In this document: piece by piece, positions 4,961 to 14,312 of the stretch | Position numbering within the stretch: the stretch's first letter is position 1 | Layout: every line of letters starts with the position of its first letter | Assembly (NCBI GenBank): GCA_019634385.1 | Contig: JAHQVK010000008.1 | Coordinates: forward strand, 1 to 47,384 | Length of the DNA: 47,384 nt | Direction: 5' to 3' | Source of the DNA: Myxococcales bacterium | GTDB taxonomy: Bacteria > Myxococcota > Kuafuiibacteriia > Kuafuiibacteriales > Kuafuiibacteriaceae | The notes under the pieces: generated by a model | Told to the model about the DNA's origin: nothing | Databases searched by the model: none | Seen by the model: only the letters and a program-made list of their open reading frames with translations | Position numbers and translations under genes: made by a program

Positions 4961-5011
4961 TGAGTGGTTACTCATACTGAATAGTTACTCATACTGAATA
5001 GTTACTCATTC
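4961..5011. repeat. Three tandem 17-base repeats spanning a stop codon
   Basis: Three head-to-tail units (4961-4977, 4978-4994, 4995-5011) with consensus TGAATAGTTACTCATAC; the first unit has GG for AA/TA changes and the last ends TTC. Each unit is nearly self-complementary over TGAATAGTTACTCA. The last unit contains the stop codon (5002-5004) and final two codons of the TPR lipoprotein gene, so the array is a tandem expansion of that gene's 3' end. It could be replication slippage or a set of sites for a dyad-recognising protein. Confidence 0.85.
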
Positions 5012-6183
5012 AGGTAGGCTGCTGACATCCGCTTCAAAGCCTTCTCCGTACGCTCTACCCACTCGTTGTGTACGCCTACCCGATTGGCCATCGCTTGGTT
5101 CATTCGGTAAACTTGCGTCGCTTTTCGAACCAGAACCGCAATTCGTTCACGCAACTCTTCCTGATAGATCTCCACCACATCCGGTGCAAGTTCAGGAGGC
5201 ACCGGTACTGCTAAAAGTTCATCAAACAATCGCTCATACATTGAGCCTACTCGATACCCCGCAGCGGTTGCCCACCCCTGATGCCCTACACGAACCGCAC
5301 GAATAAACTGGTTCTGTGCTCGAAGTAAGTGCTCACATTTCGTTTCCAATCGAGCCGCCACACGGGTGGTCCACAGCGTATTATCCGGAGGGGTTGTAGA
5401 GTTGTCCACGGCCATTGACGAGGTAGATATGGGTACCGCCGCTGCTAACTCCTCCGGCGTCACCAAAACAACCGCTTCAAACAAACTAGCCTCTGATTCT
5501 CCGAGATAGAACCGGGCTTGGGCAATAAAGTATTCTACCGGAAGATCTTCTTTCTCAGTCTGTTTATCATAATAGCGAAGCGCAGCTAGAAATGTGTGTT
5601 CAGCCTCAGAGACATCCCCGAGCATAAATTGCCCCACCCCAAGCCCCACCCTGGACTCAATCTCTTCCATCGGAAGAAGCACCCCATGAAAAGCCGTCCG
5701 TAACTGAGTAAACGCATCTATGACGGCTTTCCAGTTCTTTACTTTGGCTTGGGCAGTAGCGATTCGAAAATACGAGTCTTTATGTAGATCTCGAAACTGA
5801 TAGTCACGAATGATTGCCTGATAATGGCCAACCGCTTCTACCCACGCTTCCAACTGCTCATAGGCGAGCCCCGCGTTATAATGGGCCAAAGGTGCAAAAG
5901 ATGAATTGGGAAACTCAGTAATCAGTCGAGCATACGCCTTAACAGCCTGGTCGTAGGCCCCGATTTGAAATTGACCTTGCCCCTGCTCCAGAAGTGTTGA
6001 CGCGTCATAGCTCGCAAGATCCTCGAAACCATTGGGTGCCCCCAAGATCTCCATCCGCTCCATAGCAATAACATGAGGGGGGACACCGCTCGTCTCCGGT
6101 ACGAAGAAACTAGCGTACGCCGCACACCCTCCTAAGCCTATAGAACCAGCAAGAAGCGAAAAATAACCTATGCTATGCTGCAC
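5002..6183 (-). CDS. TPR-repeat outer-membrane lipoprotein
   Basis: A 393-residue predicted lipoprotein. The signal peptide ends in the lipobox LGGC with the lipidated cysteine at position 20. Residues about 65-215 are tetratricopeptide-like helices (LEQGQGQFQIGAYDQAVKAY, then LAHYNAGLAYEQLEAW, SYFRIATAQAK), of the BamD/YbgF scaffold kind. The C-terminal 180 residues are helical without a recognisable domain. The start is a GTG (GTG-CAG-CAT) with AAGGAG about 7 bases upstream. It follows the ArsA-like pair by 86 bases on the same strand and may be the last gene of that array. A role as an envelope-complex scaffold is inferred from architecture only. Confidence 0.85.
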   Translation of the reverse strand: MQHSIGYFSLLAGSIGLGGCAAYASFFVPETSGVPPHVIAMERMEILGAPNGFEDLASYDASTLLEQGQGQFQIGAYDQAVKAYARLITEFPNSSFAPLAHYNAGLAYEQLEAWVEAVGHYQAIIRDYQFRDLHKDSYFRIATAQAKVKNWKAVIDAFTQLRTAFHGVLLPMEEIESRVGLGVGQFMLGDVSEAEHTFLAALRYYDKQTEKEDLPVEYFIAQARFYLGESEASLFEAVVLVTPEELAAAVPISTSSMAVDNSTTPPDNTLWTTRVAARLETKCEHLLRAQNQFIRAVRVGHQGWATAAGYRVGSMYERLFDELLAVPVPPELAPDVVEIYQEELRERIAVLVRKATQVYRMNQAMANRVGVHNEWVERTEKALKRMSAAYLNE

Positions 6184-6269
6184 TCGGAGTCTCCTTCCTG
6201 TACATGCCTTGATGATACGAGAAACAACAAGGGGCTTGAAACTGTACTATCGACATCGCGCACGAAGTA

Positions 6270-7421
6270 TCATTGTGAAACAATCTTACCCTCTCCTGAT
6301 TCGAAGAGCGCACTCCGAAGATACTCCAGCCCGCGCAGATCATGAACATCCTCACTAAGCTCTGGAACAATATATGTGGATAGTAGGACATCCGAAAAAT
6401 GCGCCTTCATCTGTCGCACCTGAATGGACTCTTCCCTGAACTGGTCAGCCAGTGCGGACGTTGCGCCCAACAGATCCTCCACTGCTTCATAAGGCATACC
6501 TTCTATCTCCGCCCAAGCTCGGAGGGCATCCGGTGAGCTTGGCAAAAGCTCCATAGGCCTCGGAGTCGCTCGATTTAGGATCACCGCTGATACCCGCGCC
6601 TGCTTATCTAGAAGATGCCTCGTAAACGTCTGAGCATCTCGCACACCACCTTTTGAGGGGCGCCCGATCACACAAAAATGGGTCGAAGTATCCCCCAAGA
6701 GATCCGAGACTGCCCGGGCTCTCACCGTAAAACCATCAAACATTGTTGAGAAAGCTCTGAGGAGCTCCGCGAGATCCTCCAGCAATTCGGATCCCGTAAA
6801 TCGAGCAATCGTGCGGAAAAAAAGGCCACTGCTACCAAAAAGTCGCCCCGGCGATGCTGGTTCGAGTAACCAACGCGTAGCATCGTTACTCAGCACATCC
6901 ATCAACCGATGAGGGGCATCTAGGAAATCTAGTGCGTGGCGGGCAGGAGGGGTGTCGAGCACGATCAAATCAAGCGGATCCACCTTTCGATGGGCTAGCT
7001 GATATAGTTTCTCCATAGCCATATACTCTTGCGAGCCGGCCAATGCGGTCGATAGTGCGTGATAGAGGCGGTTGTTCATCAATCGATCCCGGTCAGCAAG
7101 ACGCGGGTGGTAGCGTTGAATGACGTCATCCCAAGCCTCCTTAATATCCAACATCATCGCCGTTAAAGGGGCCGCAGGCGGAACCATTCCCATCACTTCA
7201 AAGGCTTCCGGTTGAATGCGGGTTTCTTGACTACCTACCTCCGAAATACCTAGTGCGTTGGCCAGTCGTCGAGCGGGATCAATGGTCAACACCACCGTCC
7301 TTCGCCCTAAGCGAGCGCCCTCAATGGCCAACGCCGCCGATACGGAGGTTTTCCCCACTCCTCCTGGGCCGGCGACAACCAAGCAACGAGCCTCGGTGAC
7401 CATCCGGGCCAGTGAACTCAT
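6270..7421 (-). CDS. ArsA/Get3-like ATPase, subunit with intact P-loop lysine
   Basis: SIMIBI-class ATPase of the ArsA/Get3 family. Near the N-terminus the loop reads GPGGVGKTS: the Walker A lysine (K24) is present, but the family's intersubunit signature lysine, which should precede GG, is a proline (P19). TIDPARRLANAL is the switch I-type segment and LIVLDTPPARHALDFL the switch II/A-loop block. I use the ATG at 7421, because its ATGA overlaps the stop of the upstream ATPase gene. The longer frame to 7520 lies wholly inside that gene. The pair layout matches the tandem ArsA-like genes known in Actinobacteria and myxobacteria (for example the mycobacterial Rv3679/Rv3680 type). Client unknown; no arsenic genes are nearby. 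Confidence 0.92.
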   Translation of the reverse strand: MSSLARMVTEARCLVVAGPGGVGKTSVSAALAIEGARLGRRTVVLTIDPARRLANALGISEVGSQETRIQPEAFEVMGMVPPAAPLTAMMLDIKEAWDDVIQRYHPRLADRDRLMNNRLYHALSTALAGSQEYMAMEKLYQLAHRKVDPLDLIVLDTPPARHALDFLDAPHRLMDVLSNDATRWLLEPASPGRLFGSSGLFFRTIARFTGSELLEDLAELLRAFSTMFDGFTVRARAVSDLLGDTSTHFCVIGRPSKGGVRDAQTFTRHLLDKQARVSAVILNRATPRPMELLPSSPDALRAWAEIEGMPYEAVEDLLGATSALADQFREESIQVRQMKAHFSDVLLSTYIVPELSEDVHDLRGLEYLRSALFESGEGKIVSQ

Positions 7422-8437
7422 CCCCCACCTCGAGTAAGTGCCTGGTCTAACGTAAGCGCCACTCGTTGAATACGCTCCCGCTCCGATTTCATCCGAGGGA
7501 CTTCGGGCACCATCAGCCACGGTCTCGCGGACGCAGTTATAAACCGCTCATAATGAGCCCGCTCTCGGACCGCGCGTTGCCTTAGCCTTTGGGCCACCCA
7601 AGCATACGGCGCCAACGAGGAAGGACCACACCCCAACTTTTCGTCCCAAAAGGAAGTCCCGCTATAGATCACTGGAGGATGAACCCGGTTGATAATGGCA
7701 AGGCCAGGGCGAATCTTCAGACGGGAGGGGATCGCGGACAATAGCTCCAATCCCTCATTCACCGGCATTTCTTCAGGCACAGCCACTACGTGAAGCACCG
7801 CCCTTTCCACCATCTGCGCCATTTGCTCAGCCTGGGATTTCATAATTCCCGGTGGAGAAACATCAGCTACTACCCGAGCCACCGACAGAAACGTGATCGC
7901 ATGTCCGGTAGCTGGAGCATCCAGGATAATACGCTCATATTTCAGCGCACCATCCGGTCGACGATCTTGCGTCGCGTGCCACCACATTTTACCAAGCATA
8001 GTGAACTCGGCGAGGGCCGGAATCGAGCGGAGTAAGTACCTAACCAGTTGGTTCTCAAACACCAGTCGGTACAAAATTTGGTACTTGAGTACCTGAAGTG
8101 CATACTCCTGCAAGGCAGCTTGCGGAGTCATACAGCAGACCCATAACCGATTTTCCACTTCTCTCGGATGAGCGCTCGCTGAATAAGTACCGAGCATCCG
8201 GGTAGCTGACTCAGGAGGATCTACCTCCAACAACAGTGTACGTGCACCATCCTGCGCTGACCTCAAGGCTAACCCTAGGGCGAGGGTCGTACGCCCAGCT
8301 CCCCCTTTACCCGCTACCACCTGAACGGGCTGCCTCAAAAGCTCCCGAGCATCCAATACGTCTCTCTCCCCCGGTACTTCCTGGGTTGTCCGTAGAGCCA
8401 TGCGGCTCTGCTCGGCTGTGCCTCGCTCCATGACCAC
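7418..8437 (-). CDS. ArsA/Get3-like ATPase, subunit with substituted P-loop lysine
   Basis: First gene of the overlapping pair. Its loop is GKGGAGRTT: the signature lysine is kept (K44), but the P-loop lysine is arginine (R49; codon CGT read on the minus strand at 8291-8293). LLLEVDPPESATRML and IILDAPATGHAITFL are the switch I and II regions. A long middle helical part (LKYQILYRLVFENQLVRYLL) resembles the hydrophobic-groove or helical domain of the family. Together with the next subunit, the lysines complement each other, so this subunit probably activates its partner rather than hydrolysing ATP itself. The start is uncertain: GTG at 8437, ATG at 8431 or ATG at 8401 are possible, none with a strong ribosome site. 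Confidence 0.9.
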   Translation of the reverse strand: MVMERGTAEQSRMALRTTQEVPGERDVLDARELLRQPVQVVAGKGGAGRTTLALGLALRSAQDGARTLLLEVDPPESATRMLGTYSASAHPREVENRLWVCCMTPQAALQEYALQVLKYQILYRLVFENQLVRYLLRSIPALAEFTMLGKMWWHATQDRRPDGALKYERIILDAPATGHAITFLSVARVVADVSPPGIMKSQAEQMAQMVERAVLHVVAVPEEMPVNEGLELLSAIPSRLKIRPGLAIINRVHPPVIYSGTSFWDEKLGCGPSSLAPYAWVAQRLRQRAVRERAHYERFITASARPWLMVPEVPRMKSERERIQRVALTLDQALTRGGG

Positions 8438-8522
8438 TACAAAACTTTTTGGGGTTTGGGATCCTCAAAGCAAATCATCTTTGAGGTCCACGACTACCGA
8501 GCACAACAAACCATCTTATTCA

Positions 8523-9500
8523 TCATGGCGAGGCTACCCACTCTGGCTCAGCCGTTTCTACCGCATCAAAAATATCTTGGCTCCGCCGGACCACCTGAAT
8601 GTCCTCACCGAGTGCTTTAACAACCTCCTCACAGACTGCCCGGTTGGTGAGCAAAGCGAAATGACCAACATGCTCCACAATCACATCTCGCCCCACCGGT
8701 TCCACTTGCGCGCTCTCTGGCGGAATCACGCAAAAGTCGTGAGTACTACTGATCGAGACCAACTGTCCTGGAGGTGGCACCGGAAGGCTAACCAGCACCT
8801 TCGAGCCAGGACGCATATCCCGGGCAACCGCCCCCGGCACCATATGAGCCATTTGGCTGCCGGCATGAGGTGTGCCTAAAGTCACCAGCCGACGAATACG
8901 TGGATTTCGGCGCCCTACTTCCGCCAATCGGGCCACCAAACCTCCACTGGAGTGGGCAACCACATCCACCTGCTTTGACCCCGTTGCTCGGCAGATCAGA
9001 TCAATTCGCTCCGACAATCGACCAGCATGTTCACGCAGGTCACCATTCAACGTAGGCAGGTTTATAGTATACAGTGGCCCTAGTCCGTATCCAGCCAAAC
9101 GAGATCCCAACATCACAAAGTTAGATCTTGCCTGCATAAAACCATGCACCAGCAAGATGGGTCGTCCTGACTGAAGAAAACACGAAGCTGGCGGTGCCGG
9201 GTCGAACATCCCCAGGGGATGAAGCGCTACAAACGATCCAGCAGACAGAAACTCAGAGACAAATGTGGAACACAGCGCATCTAGGTGAGGACGACTCGGG
9301 GCCTCCGGCTCTATCCCCCGGAGACGACGTTCCACGATCCAATGAGTAAACGTGATGAAGGCGTAGATAGCACCCAAAAGGTAGGCAACTACCAGCCCCC
9401 CAACAACTGTGGCCCCTACGGCCATCGCAAAGAGACTGACCGGATGGTCGAACACGCTAAGCCTCGGCCTCAAAATCTGCCCGTTGATGGTTATGGTCAA
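8523..9500 (-). CDS. Membrane-anchored alpha/beta hydrolase, triacylglycerol lipase-like
   Basis: 325 residues. One or two hydrophobic helices at about 22-55 (VSLFAMAVGATVVGGLVVAYLL-like segment) anchor a lipase domain. The oxyanion region is VHGFMQARSNF near 118-128. The nucleophile is Ser184 in AHSSGG, a variant of the GHSxGG elbow, and LVTLGTPHAGS follows as in secreted lipases. The candidate acid and histidine lie in THDFCVIP and VEHVGHFALL. The likely substrate is a lipid or ester at the membrane. The only start I see is the TTG at 9500, since an in-frame stop lies just upstream; a later start at Met26 is possible. It sits 60 bases after the GreA/B-like gene in the same direction. Confidence 0.85.
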   Translation of the reverse strand: MTITINGQILRPRLSVFDHPVSLFAMAVGATVVGGLVVAYLLGAIYAFITFTHWIVERRLRGIEPEAPSRPHLDALCSTFVSEFLSAGSFVALHPLGMFDPAPPASCFLQSGRPILLVHGFMQARSNFVMLGSRLAGYGLGPLYTINLPTLNGDLREHAGRLSERIDLICRATGSKQVDVVAHSSGGLVARLAEVGRRNPRIRRLVTLGTPHAGSQMAHMVPGAVARDMRPGSKVLVSLPVPPPGQLVSISSTHDFCVIPPESAQVEPVGRDVIVEHVGHFALLTNRAVCEEVVKALGEDIQVVRRSQDIFDAVETAEPEWVASP

Positions 9501-9560
9501 CCATGGCTTTCATGAGCCATCAAGGAGCCCGCTAGTTAGGGAGTTATGCACCTAAATTCG

Positions 9561-10040
9561 CTAATAAACTTTGTAAACCTCAAATTCTGCGCTTTTGCCC
9601 CGGACAACGTGCTCAAAACTGTCGCCTATCATACACCCGACTAACTTCTTTCCAAGCGGCGAATTCGGAGTAAGAACTGTCCAGCAGCACCCATCCACAA
9701 CGAGTTTACTGCCTCCTCCCACTGAAGCTATATAGTAACACCTTTCCATCTCACCATCATCAACGATGACACAGGCACCCACTGCAACTCTGTCGTTCTC
9801 GCTCAGTTGAGGTAGGATCATCCCTTCCAGCGAAGCTATAGCCATGGCGAGATGCTCCACACGTGCTGTTTGAGCTCCCGCCAAATAGGATTGCTCGAGA
9901 GCTCGGGTATCGTACTCATTTTCGGGTTTAGCCTCTTCGTGCGTGGCCCCTTCACGAGCCGCCAATGCCGACGCTCGAAGCTGCTCCAGCTGAACATGAA
10001 GCTCAGCGTGAAGTGCTGCGTGTATCGCCTCCTTGTTCAT
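9561..10040 (-). CDS. GreA/GreB-family C-terminal-domain protein
   Basis: A 159-residue protein. The first 75 residues are alpha-helical and charged, with NEYDTRALEQSYLAGAQ resembling helices seen in other stand-alone GreAB-type proteins. The C-terminal part holds the transcript-cleavage-factor core TVLTPNSPLGKKLVGCMIGD followed by two beta strands. It lacks the complete Gre coiled coil with its acidic tip, so it may bind RNA polymerase or a Gre-like pocket without acting as a cleavage factor. AGGGTG precedes the ATG closely. It follows the TPR-cNMP gene by 18 bases, so the two are likely cotranscribed. Confidence 0.8.
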   Translation of the reverse strand: MNKEAIHAALHAELHVQLEQLRASALAAREGATHEEAKPENEYDTRALEQSYLAGAQTARVEHLAMAIASLEGMILPQLSENDRVAVGACVIVDDGEMERCYYIASVGGGSKLVVDGCCWTVLTPNSPLGKKLVGCMIGDSFEHVVRGKSAEFEVYKVY

Positions 10041-10058
10041 TCCGTCACCCTACACGAA

Positions 10059-11354
10059 TCACACCATTACGCTGGCGTCGTCGGTGACGCCGCCCTTCGG
10101 AGCCACCGCCAAACGCCCTTCCGACATGACATTGAGAGTCTCTACCATTTTCGGGTATCTCACCAAAACCTCGCGAAAGTCAGCTTGAGGTAGAAACAAC
10201 AACTCTCCAAGCTCCATAGTTTGCACGGTCGCCATTGTGGGCACATCATACAGCAGACTCATCTCGCCAAAAACATCTCCGCTGCGCAATACCGCTAGCT
10301 CCGTAGGTCGGTTATTTCCTTCTGTGACTACGCGCATCTGTCCGGATAGTACGAGATACAAGCCCCGTGCTTTTTCACCTTGTTCAATGATAATATCACC
10401 AGGGAATACGCGCTGGGCACGAAACATCGCCAATAGACTGCGCTGATCCGATAAAGACAGATGGGCAAACAACGGACTAGTTGCTGCTAAGTTAGCCAGA
10501 AAACGACCCCGTGTGAACTTTCTTAGCGCTTCTCGCACACTCTCGAGTTGTCCTGCATACTCTTCCAAGTCTCCCCGGGTAAGTTCAAGCGCTTCGATTT
10601 CACCAGTCGCTCGCACCGTTGCTACCCGAGCCGCACGACTGACTAAAGCCATCTCACCAAATACCGCACCTCGGCCTAAACGAGCCAATAATACTTCGTC
10701 CCGGCCGCCATTCCTCCAAATAGAAACCTCGCCATCCACGAGGATATAAAACGAGTGCCCAGCATCACCTTCCTGAATGACAACATCACCGTCAGCGTAG
10801 CGACGTAGTCGAAGGCTCTGCAGCACCGCCAAAAACGGTGTAGCCCCTAAGTGGGAAAACAATGGAATGCGAGGCAAGGTCTGAGGCGCTTCATCAATTC
10901 CAGCCACTTCTGCAGCAGCCCTAACCGCCGCCTGAATCAACTCTTCCCCAAGCTCCGAAACTGGCGCCAGTACCGCATCTTCGGACAACGGGGGAAGATT
11001 CGGGACCGCAACATCACTGGTACGATCAGAATCGGCGGAGTACATTTCCGCCAATACTACCAAGATGTCTTCCAAGTGGGGATCTAAGGCTAGAACCATC
11101 TTTGCGGCAACAATTCCAAGCAACGGACGGCCTCCACGAATATGATCCCAAGCCAAGTCCCTATAAATCTTCTTAGCGTGATCAGCGTATCCCAGATTCA
11201 GAAGCGTATCTGCCATCCTAAAGCGGGCTTTGGCGAAACGCGGCTCAGTCCGAACAATGCTCAGATAGCGCGTCAGCGCTTCCTCCCACTTCCCCTGAGA
11301 AAATGCGTCTTCTGCTTGACGCAACTGGTCGCTAAGTCCGGGTAATGCCTCCAT
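10059..11354 (-). CDS. TPR protein with two cyclic-nucleotide-binding domains
   Basis: 431 residues. Residues about 5-110 are TPR-like (LRQAEDAFSQGKWEEALTRY, FRMADTLLNLGYADHAKKIY). Two Crp-type cyclic-nucleotide-binding beta barrels follow at about 165-275 and 285-405, each with the phosphate-binding cassette: GEMALVSRAARVATV in the first and GEMSLLYDVPTMATV in the second. There is no DNA-binding helix-turn-helix or kinase domain, so it is a nucleotide-responsive adaptor rather than a transcription factor. The cassettes are close to consensus (R in the first, T in the second at the arginine position), so the second barrel may not bind nucleotide. Upstream and downstream genes are 1 and 18 bases away. 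Confidence 0.88.
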   Translation of the reverse strand: MEALPGLSDQLRQAEDAFSQGKWEEALTRYLSIVRTEPRFAKARFRMADTLLNLGYADHAKKIYRDLAWDHIRGGRPLLGIVAAKMVLALDPHLEDILVVLAEMYSADSDRTSDVAVPNLPPLSEDAVLAPVSELGEELIQAAVRAAAEVAGIDEAPQTLPRIPLFSHLGATPFLAVLQSLRLRRYADGDVVIQEGDAGHSFYILVDGEVSIWRNGGRDEVLLARLGRGAVFGEMALVSRAARVATVRATGEIEALELTRGDLEEYAGQLESVREALRKFTRGRFLANLAATSPLFAHLSLSDQRSLLAMFRAQRVFPGDIIIEQGEKARGLYLVLSGQMRVVTEGNNRPTELAVLRSGDVFGEMSLLYDVPTMATVQTMELGELLFLPQADFREVLVRYPKMVETLNVMSEGRLAVAPKGGVTDDASVMV

Positions 11355-11355
11355 G

Positions 11356-11997
11356 TCAGGAGGCTAAACCGTATACTCTCTCAAGCAACTCTTCGAGCAG
11401 ATCTGCTTCGATCATATGCGGATTTATTGGCCGCTCCAGCGCTTCCATTACGGCACGCAATTTAGGAACCGAGAGGTCTGACATGGCCACAAATGCGGTG
11501 TCTTCGTTCACAAACAGACATACCGCGCCTTCCTGCCTAGCCACTTCCTCCGGAAGCTCTCGTGCCGCTTGAGGCACCAGGTTGCATCTAGCAAAGTCCG
11601 CGGACGCAGCCCGCTCAAACGCAGTTTCCGGGCCCTCTCGAACCGCTAGAGGATCTTCCCCGAGTGAGCTCATCTGCTCTTCGATTTGTGCCAGCTGCAA
11701 GAGCAAGCGGGGTACATCTGAGCGACTAGGATTCGGTCTGAACACACCCTCTTTAACCAGTGAGTGAGTCTGCCCTTTGCTTCCTCCTAAAAGTCTGAGC
11801 GACCCGGCCTCCAGAACGGCTTGCGGAGCGAGAGCAACGGTTTCACCGCGAGATATCTGGTCCCCGATTCTCAGCTCCTGGGCTTCGTTCGTGTCTTCAG
11901 AAATACGCCACGCAATGCCCTCTAGACGGGCAATACAGAGAGGCGAAGATGAAGTACGGTGCAAGTTAACAATGGTTGTATCCGGTAGTGTAGGCAT
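11356..11997 (-). CDS. FecR-like plus MshEN (GspE N-terminal) domain protein
   Basis: 213 residues of two parts. Residues about 20-75 (ARLEGIAWRISED ... LRIGDQISRGETVALAPQAVLEAG) resemble the FecR-type beta domain found in many deltaproteobacterial proteins. Residues about 130-210 (CNLVPQAARELPEEVARQEG, then DTAFVAMSDLSVPKLRAVME and LEELLERVYG) match the MshEN/GspE N-terminal domain that usually precedes PilB or GspE ATPases. Here no ATPase follows, so the domain stands alone. GAGG lies 5 bases before the ATG. It sits 6 bases from the HEAT-repeat gene and 1 base from the TPR-cNMP gene, in a tight operon. The role is inferred to be signalling or assembly. Confidence 0.7.
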   Translation of the reverse strand: MPTLPDTTIVNLHRTSSSPLCIARLEGIAWRISEDTNEAQELRIGDQISRGETVALAPQAVLEAGSLRLLGGSKGQTHSLVKEGVFRPNPSRSDVPRLLLQLAQIEEQMSSLGEDPLAVREGPETAFERAASADFARCNLVPQAARELPEEVARQEGAVCLFVNEDTAFVAMSDLSVPKLRAVMEALERPINPHMIEADLLEELLERVYGLAS

Positions 11998-12003
11998 GCA
12001 ACC

Positions 12004-13641
12004 TCAGTCGACCCAACCCATAGTTCTTAGCTTCTGATGCGCTTTCTTTCCAAGGGGTTTCCCTTCGAAGCGCTCTGCCAAACCCATGAGCACGTCGCCC
12101 CCTAGACCTCGTACCGCGTCCGACTTGTCCTCGGCCAGCGAGAAGCCTAGATAGTACAGATCGGTTGGCTCCAGATCGAGCTCTGCAGCCAATCGCTCTA
12201 CAGTGGGAAACTTCGGATGCTTGAGTAACCTACGAAAATGAGACACCGCTGGATCATGGCTGGCACCTCGTCCAAGAGTTTTCTTCGACAGCTTAAGCTC
12301 GCAGACCCCCAATAAAAACATAGCTTCCGGATGACCATCACTCGCGATGCGCCGAAATAAATCAGCCGCTTCGGACCACTGACCAGCCGCTTTGAGTTCT
12401 TCACCTCGTTCGACCAGGTTCCCGGAGCCTCCCCGTCCACGGAGAATCCGCATAACGTGTTCTGCAACTTCAGGAGGCGCTTCCACCACTGCGTCTTCCA
12501 AAGCATCAAGTATCGACTTCGTCAGATCGTCAGTGTGTGCCTCAAGAGCAGACGCGATAGCTCGAGCTTGTTCACCGTCGGTGATCCCCACTAAGGTCTT
12601 AGCAAGTGCACGACGCCCATGGAGGGTGGAAGAGGCCGCTTCCACCGCAATCATTCGATCCGATGAGTCCCCGGCCAAAACAACCAAGGCAAGAGCCCGG
12701 GCCGCGGGTGCTGCATCTAGCGCCCCCAGTGCTCGAATAGCCCATCGACGGACCGGCGTTTGCTCCGCCTTCGTCAATGCTCTTACCCTAGGTTCGAGCG
12801 CGATGGGTAAATCCATACCCGCAAGGGTATCGCTAGCCACAGACAGTAAGGCAGGTGGGGTACCCGGCATCTCGAGCACATTCACCAACGTCTTAAACAC
12901 ATGTTCCTGTGCCCCCCGATGACCACGGGAGGCTCGCCAAAGCACCTCCACGGCGCTTATACGGACGTCGGCCGGTGCTGGTGCCTCAACAATTCGGGAC
13001 AAAACACCGGTCACCGCACCGTGGTCGACGCCTGCCAACAGAGCAACAAGAGTTGACGCACACCGCTCCAGGCCGCCGTCTTCAAGCTCACCGACAAATG
13101 CATCCACATCGTGCAGAAAGGTCGGCACTTCATCCTGGGATAACCCCGCAACCTCTGGCGCCAAAGCTTCCAGAACCGACTCCTGGACTTTGGCACTTCC
13201 ACTTCCCAACTGCATAATGAGCATCTTCCGGGCTTCACCACCGCCGCGTGCACCAAGCACAGCAATAGCCCCCATCCGTTGCTTCTCATCTTTGGCTTCA
13301 AGCATCTGCACCAGCTCTTCGAGCTGGACCCCAGGCCCCTCCGCCAAAACGATCTTCGCTGCATCTCGCACCAACGAGTCCCCATCCTTGAGAAGCGGCC
13401 GAAGATCACGAACCAGCGTTTTCGGTGCAATGAGCCCCAGGGCAATCGCAGCCGCACTCCGAACACTCGGCTCCGAGTCGCCGAGGGCTCGGCGGAGTCC
13501 ACTCAAAACGTCCTCCTCACCAATCTGGAGAGCACCCAGCACCACCGCAGCCGAACAACGATGCTCAACCGGCGTGTCAGTGAGCAATCCGACCAGACGG
13601 TCATGAAGCGGGTCTTCGTGATTTGCAGTGCTTCGGGTCAT
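12004..13641 (-). CDS. HEAT-repeat protein with C-terminal TPR/Sel1-like region
   Basis: About 545 residues. Roughly the first 390 are HEAT repeats; typical units are VGLLTDTPVEHRCSAAVVLG, PSVRSAAAIALGLIAP and TPVRRWAIRALGALDAAPA, with the Pro and paired helices of the repeat. The last 140 residues hold TPR/Sel1-like helices (AADLFRRIASDGHPEAMFLLG). There is no catalytic motif; it is a protein-interaction solenoid. GGAGG precedes the gene: a GTG at 13653 would touch it, so I prefer the ATG at 13641 with about 12 bases of spacing. It is the first gene of the five-gene operon reading toward 8523. Confidence 0.85.
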   Translation of the reverse strand: MTRSTANHEDPLHDRLVGLLTDTPVEHRCSAAVVLGALQIGEEDVLSGLRRALGDSEPSVRSAAAIALGLIAPKTLVRDLRPLLKDGDSLVRDAAKIVLAEGPGVQLEELVQMLEAKDEKQRMGAIAVLGARGGGEARKMLIMQLGSGSAKVQESVLEALAPEVAGLSQDEVPTFLHDVDAFVGELEDGGLERCASTLVALLAGVDHGAVTGVLSRIVEAPAPADVRISAVEVLWRASRGHRGAQEHVFKTLVNVLEMPGTPPALLSVASDTLAGMDLPIALEPRVRALTKAEQTPVRRWAIRALGALDAAPAARALALVVLAGDSSDRMIAVEAASSTLHGRRALAKTLVGITDGEQARAIASALEAHTDDLTKSILDALEDAVVEAPPEVAEHVMRILRGRGGSGNLVERGEELKAAGQWSEAADLFRRIASDGHPEAMFLLGVCELKLSKKTLGRGASHDPAVSHFRRLLKHPKFPTVERLAAELDLEPTDLYYLGFSLAEDKSDAVRGLGGDVLMGLAERFEGKPLGKKAHQKLRTMGWVD

Positions 13642-14312
13642 CGGTGTTTTCACCCTCCAAACAAAGATTCATCTAAACCAAACCACGTTGGCTTGAATCA
13701 CATTGAACCTGAACTCACTTCGTTGAGCCAAAACTCACTTCATCTCGCAGCGCCTTGGTAAGGTGGCAGTGATGGCTCCCGTGCACCGCAGAACTCCTAC
13801 TGTGCGAATATTATGCTACCTACCGCGCGAATATCGCGGGTTTACGAGGTCAGAGCTAGGTCTGCCTGCTCGTCGGGTTCTTACTAGCAGTATACCACCG
13901 TCAACTCAACCATTCGGGGACATAGTGCAATAAACCTCATCAGCACCCGTCGGAGTTCGGCAGTACTTCCTCGAATAGCAACGCATGACACCTGCTTATG
14001 GATAGGAGAACGCATTATCGTCGCCAACAGGCCGCCAACCTTAGCCTAGTTAGCGTCAATCATTTAGCAGGCACTCAACATTTTGTTGAGGAGCGTACGT
14101 CACATCCACACATTGGAAAGCTATTTATTCACGCTAGCGTGAAGTGGCTCATTTCAACCTACTTTCGCCCACGACTGGCAACAACTTTTATCAAGAAGCG
14201 CCTCAAACTTGAAACAATCATTGAACAAACCCAACCGTTATTCATAGGGTTATCCGGCGATAGTAACTACCACGTTCACCGTCGCTTTGCCGCGACTTCC
14301 TCGCAACTACGC
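13642..14312. other. Intergenic control region between divergent genes
   Basis: About 670 bases separate the HEAT-repeat operon from the large DUF4388 gene. Visible signals are a direct repeat AACTCACTT at 13712-13720 and 13732-13740, exactly 20 bases apart (two helical turns), and a hairpin with stems CCGCG/CGCGG around GAATAT near 13821-13840, preceded by a similar TGCGAATATT. An open frame runs from 13998 into the downstream gene, but its composition does not look coding. No repeat of the window's three families is present. Confidence 0.4.

Follow-up and report, generated by a model that had tools for sequence, protein, structure and literature searches.

A BagA/BagB-type pair of Get3-like ATPase subunits from a Myxococcales bacterium with one predicted hydrolytic site

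The window analysed here, a stretch of 47,384 nucleotides from a Myxococcales bacterium, carries two adjacent genes for ArsA/Get3-like ATPases, called A and B in the following, each of which has replaced a different one of the two key lysines of the family. The locus raises the question whether the two proteins form a heterodimer in which only one of the two composite ATP sites is complete, and whether the two replacements belong together. In the Get3 dimer the ATP bound by one subunit is reached by the signature lysine of the other, the canonical lysine holds the phosphates within its own subunit and the switch-I aspartate (D57 in yeast) positions the water (PMC10248533, PMC6633398). When this aspartate is changed to asparagine (D57N) hydrolysis is lost and nucleotide is still bound (PMC6633398). 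The first-pass annotation of the locus had started from a signature lysine acting on partner-bound ATP, and this is indeed the Get3 mechanism (PMC10248533).

Both reading frames and their motifs were present as this annotation had described them, and so was the overlap of the stop codon of A with the start codon of B. The relevant features are the following:

7418–8437, minus strand: subunit A (BagA/Rv3679-like), 339 aa; Pfam ArsA_ATPase (PF02374) 1.3e-19; best PDB sequence match 6bs3_A
6270–7421, minus strand: subunit B (BagB/Rv3680-like), 383 aa; PF02374 4.7e-24; best PDB match 6bs3_B
8285–8311, minus strand: P-loop of A, GKGGAGRTT
7344–7370, minus strand: P-loop of B, GPGGVGKTS
8219–8221, minus strand: switch-I Asp73 of A (position of Get3 Asp57); Asp in 18/172 A sequences
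7278–7280, minus strand: switch-I Asp48 of B (equivalent of Get3 Asp57); Asp in 164/164 readable B sequences
7418–7421, minus strand: ATGA overlap formed by the stop TGA of A and the start ATG of B, with a GAGG-type ribosome-binding sequence just upstream

Translation of A starts with the GTG at 8437 or alternatively with the ATG at 8431, and that of B with the ATG at 7421 (all minus strand); the GTG at 7520 in the ORF listing belongs to an in-frame upstream extension of B. In A the signature lysine is retained as Lys44 (codon 8306–8308, minus strand) and the P-loop position is Arg49 (codon 8291–8293, minus strand, CGT). In B the signature position is occupied by Pro19 (codon 7365–7367, minus strand) and the P-loop lysine is retained as Lys24 (codon 7350–7352, minus strand). 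An alignment with relatives shows that the window A keeps Asp73, the Mg-binding threonine and the switch-II sequence DAPATGH. No CXXC motif is found in the protein sequence of A or B.

A comparison with the sequences of the PDB gave 6bs3_A (Rv3679) as the best match of A (5.6e-16) and 6bs3_B (Rv3680) as the best match of B (8.1e-54); both are chains of an entry entitled 'ADP-bound bacterial Get3-like A and B in Mycobacterium tuberculosis'. The M. tuberculosis A protein scored 161 bits against our A profile and 60 bits against the B profile, the M. tuberculosis B protein 350 bits against the B profile and 84 bits against the A profile. AlphaFold models were built from four sequences and reached a mean pLDDT of 68 (A) and 71 (B), which makes them adequate for the fold and too coarse for side chains. 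With the B model Foldseek returned 6bs3_B at the top (2.2e-22), and with the A model 3zq6 and 6bs3_A were among the top four; against Get3 (e.g., PDB 3ZQ6) the values were 3.4e-12 for A and 5.7e-14 for B.

The genes of the M. tuberculosis pair BagA/BagB (Rv3679/Rv3680, PDB 6BS3/6BS4/6BS5) are adjacent as in the window. The M. tuberculosis B motif GAGGVGKTT resembles the window B in having no signature lysine together with a P-loop lysine and a switch-I aspartate. In the M. tuberculosis A protein (GKGGTGKST) the P-loop lysine is kept and a glutamate stands at the switch-I position, whereas the window A has arginine and aspartate at these places. With the corresponding M. tuberculosis chain as the match of each subunit, A upstream of B and the motif pattern of B, the window pair is on sequence grounds a pair of BagA/BagB-type (bacterial Get3-like) ATPase subunits. 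The names BagA and BagB and a role in tolerance to glycerol and nitric oxide have been reported (PMC10597346). A literature search on Get3 pairs of Myxococcota yielded nothing useful. For the window alone the finding amounts to a variant of a known complex; little is known about what the bacterial Get3-like A/B complexes do and how they cycle.

We now turn to the conservation of the two composite sites among relatives. A first set collected by homology contained 116 A-type sequences, one of them an unrelated Get3-like ORF; 109 had both lysines and seven an arginine in the P-loop. All readable B proteins of this set (122/122) were without the signature lysine and had the P-loop lysine. A pattern search for GKGG(V/A)GR brought up many further Arg-type A proteins, mostly of a second A type. 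In the full set, drawn from Myxococcota and other phyla, there are 172 sequences of A and 164 readable ones of B. Since a CGN-specific DNA pattern for GKGG(V/A)GR contributed part of it, this set is enriched for Arg-type A, and the 137 lysines and 35 arginines counted at the P-loop position of A have to be read accordingly; only these two residues occur there (172/172).

On the side of B the P-loop lysine and the switch-I aspartate are each present in 164/164 readable sequences, without any exchange of the P-loop lysine for arginine, and the signature lysine is present in none (0/164), its place being taken by Ser (65), Ala (59), Pro (28), Thr (9) or Gly (3). The signature lysine of A is found in 171/172 sequences. 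At the switch-I position of A an aspartate is seen in 18/172 sequences only; the commonest residue is asparagine (57/172), the very residue of the Get3 D57N mutant. A was located immediately upstream of B at every pair found: 114 of 116 cases were scored so, and the two exceptions are a stop-to-stop ORF artefact and the unrelated Get3-like ORF. The single A protein lacking the signature lysine (L210, 996–1913, plus strand, GTGGVGKT) may have undergone a recent change or contain a sequence error; its nearest relative, L202, has the lysine.

To put it in terms of the two sites, the B-centred site, consisting of the P-loop lysine and the switch-I aspartate of B and the signature lysine of A, is conserved almost without exception, and the residues serving only the A-centred site are lost, weakened or replaced across the family. 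This is the pattern to be expected if ATP hydrolysis is confined to the B-centred site.

Two natural fusions of A and B were also found. The one from Myxococcota (L240, 1677–3785, plus strand, G134:C83) is 703 aa long and has GKGGVGRS followed by GAGGVGKT, so that one polypeptide shows exactly the combination of the window: its A half has the arginine and its B half is without the signature lysine. The one from outside the phylum (L243, of L153/L243, G321:C120) is 796 aa long and has GKGGVGKS followed by GSGGVGKT. The occurrence of A and B in a single chain in two cases argues that they act together. The first-pass annotation had proposed an asymmetric A:B heterodimer in which one composite site is complete. 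This is strongly backed by the conservation, and also by the two fusions and the solved A/B complex of M. tuberculosis. The pattern and the two fusions show how a symmetric ATPase dimer can turn one-sided.

The same annotation had understood the two replacements as a coupled loss, to be checked by aligning A and B across Myxococcota and Actinobacteria. In our sequences from Myxococcota and other phyla the substitutions vary separately: most A proteins have both lysines (GKGGVGK) and are paired with a B that has no signature lysine, an outcome which the annotation itself had named as refuting its reading. In the class of the window the arginine is found in A of all four sampled genera, encoded by CGT, CGC, CGG and CGA in proteins of about 50% identity, and Arg49 is therefore neither a sequencing error nor a chance event. 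A first tree of 91 A sequences requires four K/R changes, at least three of them forced by starred (well-supported) branches; a wider tree of 146 A sequences requires eight such changes, of which at least six are forced in this way. Within genus g53 the genomes G084 and G085 have arginine and G083 has lysine, and the second pair of the window genome (contig C37) shows the common lysine state with GKGGVGKTT and GAGGVGKTT. As the loss in B is universal and the exchange in A is sporadic and recurrent, we consider the two substitutions separate events and not coupled ones.

Two narrower explanations of the exchange were rejected. A restriction to the class of the window is ruled out by G005, G006 and G284 and by a large clade of the second type. 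A link of Pro or Ala, and not Ser, in B with arginine in A was seen in the first seven R-bearing pairs only and is ruled out by L174/L175 with arginine in A and serine in B.

Judged from the aligned families, it is well supported that the one-site asymmetric heterodimer would be a feature of the whole family which was not created by the exchange of lysine for arginine. The exchange in the window A is best described as a lineage-specific later addition to this general design.

It had further been assumed that the arginine in the P-loop means a loss, and this assumption does not hold. NosGet3d, the Get3d protein of Nostoc, has like the window A an arginine at the canonical Walker A lysine with the signature lysine retained, and in addition a glutamate at switch I, and yet is an ATPase with a kcat of 0.28 per min compared with 1.10 per min for the Arabidopsis protein (PMC10248533). 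The Nostoc protein is a homodimer with a C-terminal alpha-crystallin domain and without an asymmetric partner, whereas the window holds an A/B pair. Given the activity of NosGet3d, the site of A cannot be called dead from Arg49 alone; it would be crippled mainly because B is without the trans lysine in every relative. That only arginine ever replaces the lysine suggests that the site of A still holds nucleotide, and Arg49 is probably a conservative change at a nucleotide-binding and probably non-hydrolysing site.

The best overall explanation, and in our judgement a rather likely one, is a BagA/BagB-type heterodimer with hydrolysis at the B-centred site and no turnover at the A-centred site. 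A and B, both of the ArsA/Get3 fold, would associate face to face. ATP bound to the P-loop of B (Lys24, with Asp48 and switch II) would be hydrolysed with the help of Lys44 of A. The A-centred site would receive no trans lysine because of the proline at the signature position of B. It would have drifted family-wide, the switch-I aspartate being mostly lost and the P-loop lysine having changed to arginine several times, and would probably bind nucleotide in a structural or sensory role and not turn it over. The machine might handle a hydrophobic client, and at a guess it could be tied to the adjacent TPR lipoprotein. Which site hydrolyses we infer from the chemistry of Get3, and the M. tuberculosis complex and the natural fusions suggest that the window pair itself forms the heterodimer. 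The conservation pattern predicts which residues do the work, and this prediction is testable. The retained Asp73 of the window A speaks against the one-site reading. Whitaker is said to have found in 2020 that function in M. tuberculosis depends on the ATP-binding motif being intact in Rv3679 as well as in Rv3680, in which case the site of A would matter there.

A possibility which fits these residues is that both sites turn over ATP, the arginine of A working like a lysine and some other residue replacing the trans lysine of B. The activity of NosGet3d with its Lys-to-Arg exchange (PMC10248533), the set of Asp73, Mg-binding threonine and DAPATGH in the window A and the restriction of the P-loop position to lysine or arginine in all A sequences (172/172) would all be in keeping with this. 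However, the signature position of B holds Ser, Pro, Ala, Thr or Gly and never lysine or arginine, and the loss of the switch-I aspartate in most A relatives is not expected of a site that turns over; we therefore regard turnover at both sites as unlikely. Still less probable is a neutral decay, in which the window pair would be redundant with the second A/B pair on contig C37 and the arginine would be drift under relaxed selection. The canonical second pair does exist in this genome, but the arginine is fixed in four genera with four different codons, the ORFs are intact at about 50% identity, the changes at the P-loop position of A lead only to arginine and the other K-to-R lineages likewise have an intact B next to A.

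Get3 itself is homodimeric, and A and B could in principle be separate homodimers that are neighbours by accident. A homodimer of B, which is everywhere without the signature lysine, would however have no complete site, and the two fusions, the strict order of A before B and the co-crystallisation of the M. tuberculosis orthologues (6BS3) make this the least credible of the alternatives. Returning to the heterodimer with B-centred hydrolysis, we can extend it tentatively, and with more doubt than conviction, to all bacteria: there would be one hydrolytic site throughout, and the A site would have become repeatedly, even in fusions, a nucleotide-binding sensor marked by the change of lysine to arginine, resulting in a one-stroke Get3 whose hydrolysis at B would be gated by binding at A.

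The comparison with other known systems places the pair further. With the eukaryotic and archaeal Get3/TRC40 proteins A and B have the fold, the intradimeric Walker A motif, switch I and switch II and the asparagine of the adenine site in common. Each subunit of the symmetric Get3 homodimer has both lysines, whereas the window A is without the P-loop lysine and B without the signature lysine. The CXXC zinc motif at the Get3/TRC40 dimer interface is absent from A and B, as it is from some Get3 proteins (PMC10248533). Get3/TRC40 binds tail-anchored clients. The arsenite pump ATPase ArsA joins two ArsA-fold halves in one chain, an arrangement mimicked by the two A-B fusions, and has GKGGVGKT in both halves, whereas the window has two separate genes with one altered lysine each. 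We rejected membership in ArsA on account of the separate genes, the altered lysines and the absence of ars genes among the scanned neighbours. The SRP54/FtsY GTPase heterodimer, a SIMIBI pseudo-homodimer, hydrolyses at a single one of its two composite sites (PMC9599734); this is an analogy only, as these proteins are of another family and use GTP and arginine fingers.

A and B are part of a same-strand run of genes for a HEAT repeat protein, an MshEN domain protein, a cyclic-nucleotide-binding/TPR protein, a GreA-like protein, an alpha/beta hydrolase, A, B and a TPR lipoprotein. No arsenic resistance gene was found among the six neighbours scanned with Pfam (5002–13653). The genes flanking the pair, whose conservation was scored by tblastn, are:

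8523–9500, minus strand: alpha/beta hydrolase, upstream of A (Pfam, tblastn)
5002–6183, minus strand: TPR protein with a lipoprotein-like signal, downstream of B (Pfam, tblastn)

All four members of the class (4/4) and 26 other loci of Myxococcota have a gene for the TPR lipoprotein no more than about 3 kb downstream of B. The product of this gene is a possible functional partner of A/B; a connection with the biology of the envelope or of lipoproteins is no more than a lead. The hydrolase is found just upstream of A at eight other loci (L080, L082, L083, L088, L136, L141, L155 and L157), some of which come from the same genomes. Farther upstream, 10059–11354 of the window encodes two cyclic-nucleotide-binding domains and TPR beside the MshEN and HEAT genes, and this block is conserved in the window's class.

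Many Myxococcota have two or more A/B pairs. The second pair of the window genome (G000:C37; L078, about 6530–8600, minus strand) is canonical and of another subtype. A third, divergent A/B type on a long branch was seen at L169, L178 and L185 (G051, G103 and G134) with the A motif RVLFVLGKGGVGRST; its B proteins have GGGG or GAGG. One 4-kb locus with an A/B pair also encodes an ordinary Get3/ArsA-like protein of a single chain (L134, 296–2605, minus strand), which has an apparent C-terminal domain of the small-heat-shock type.
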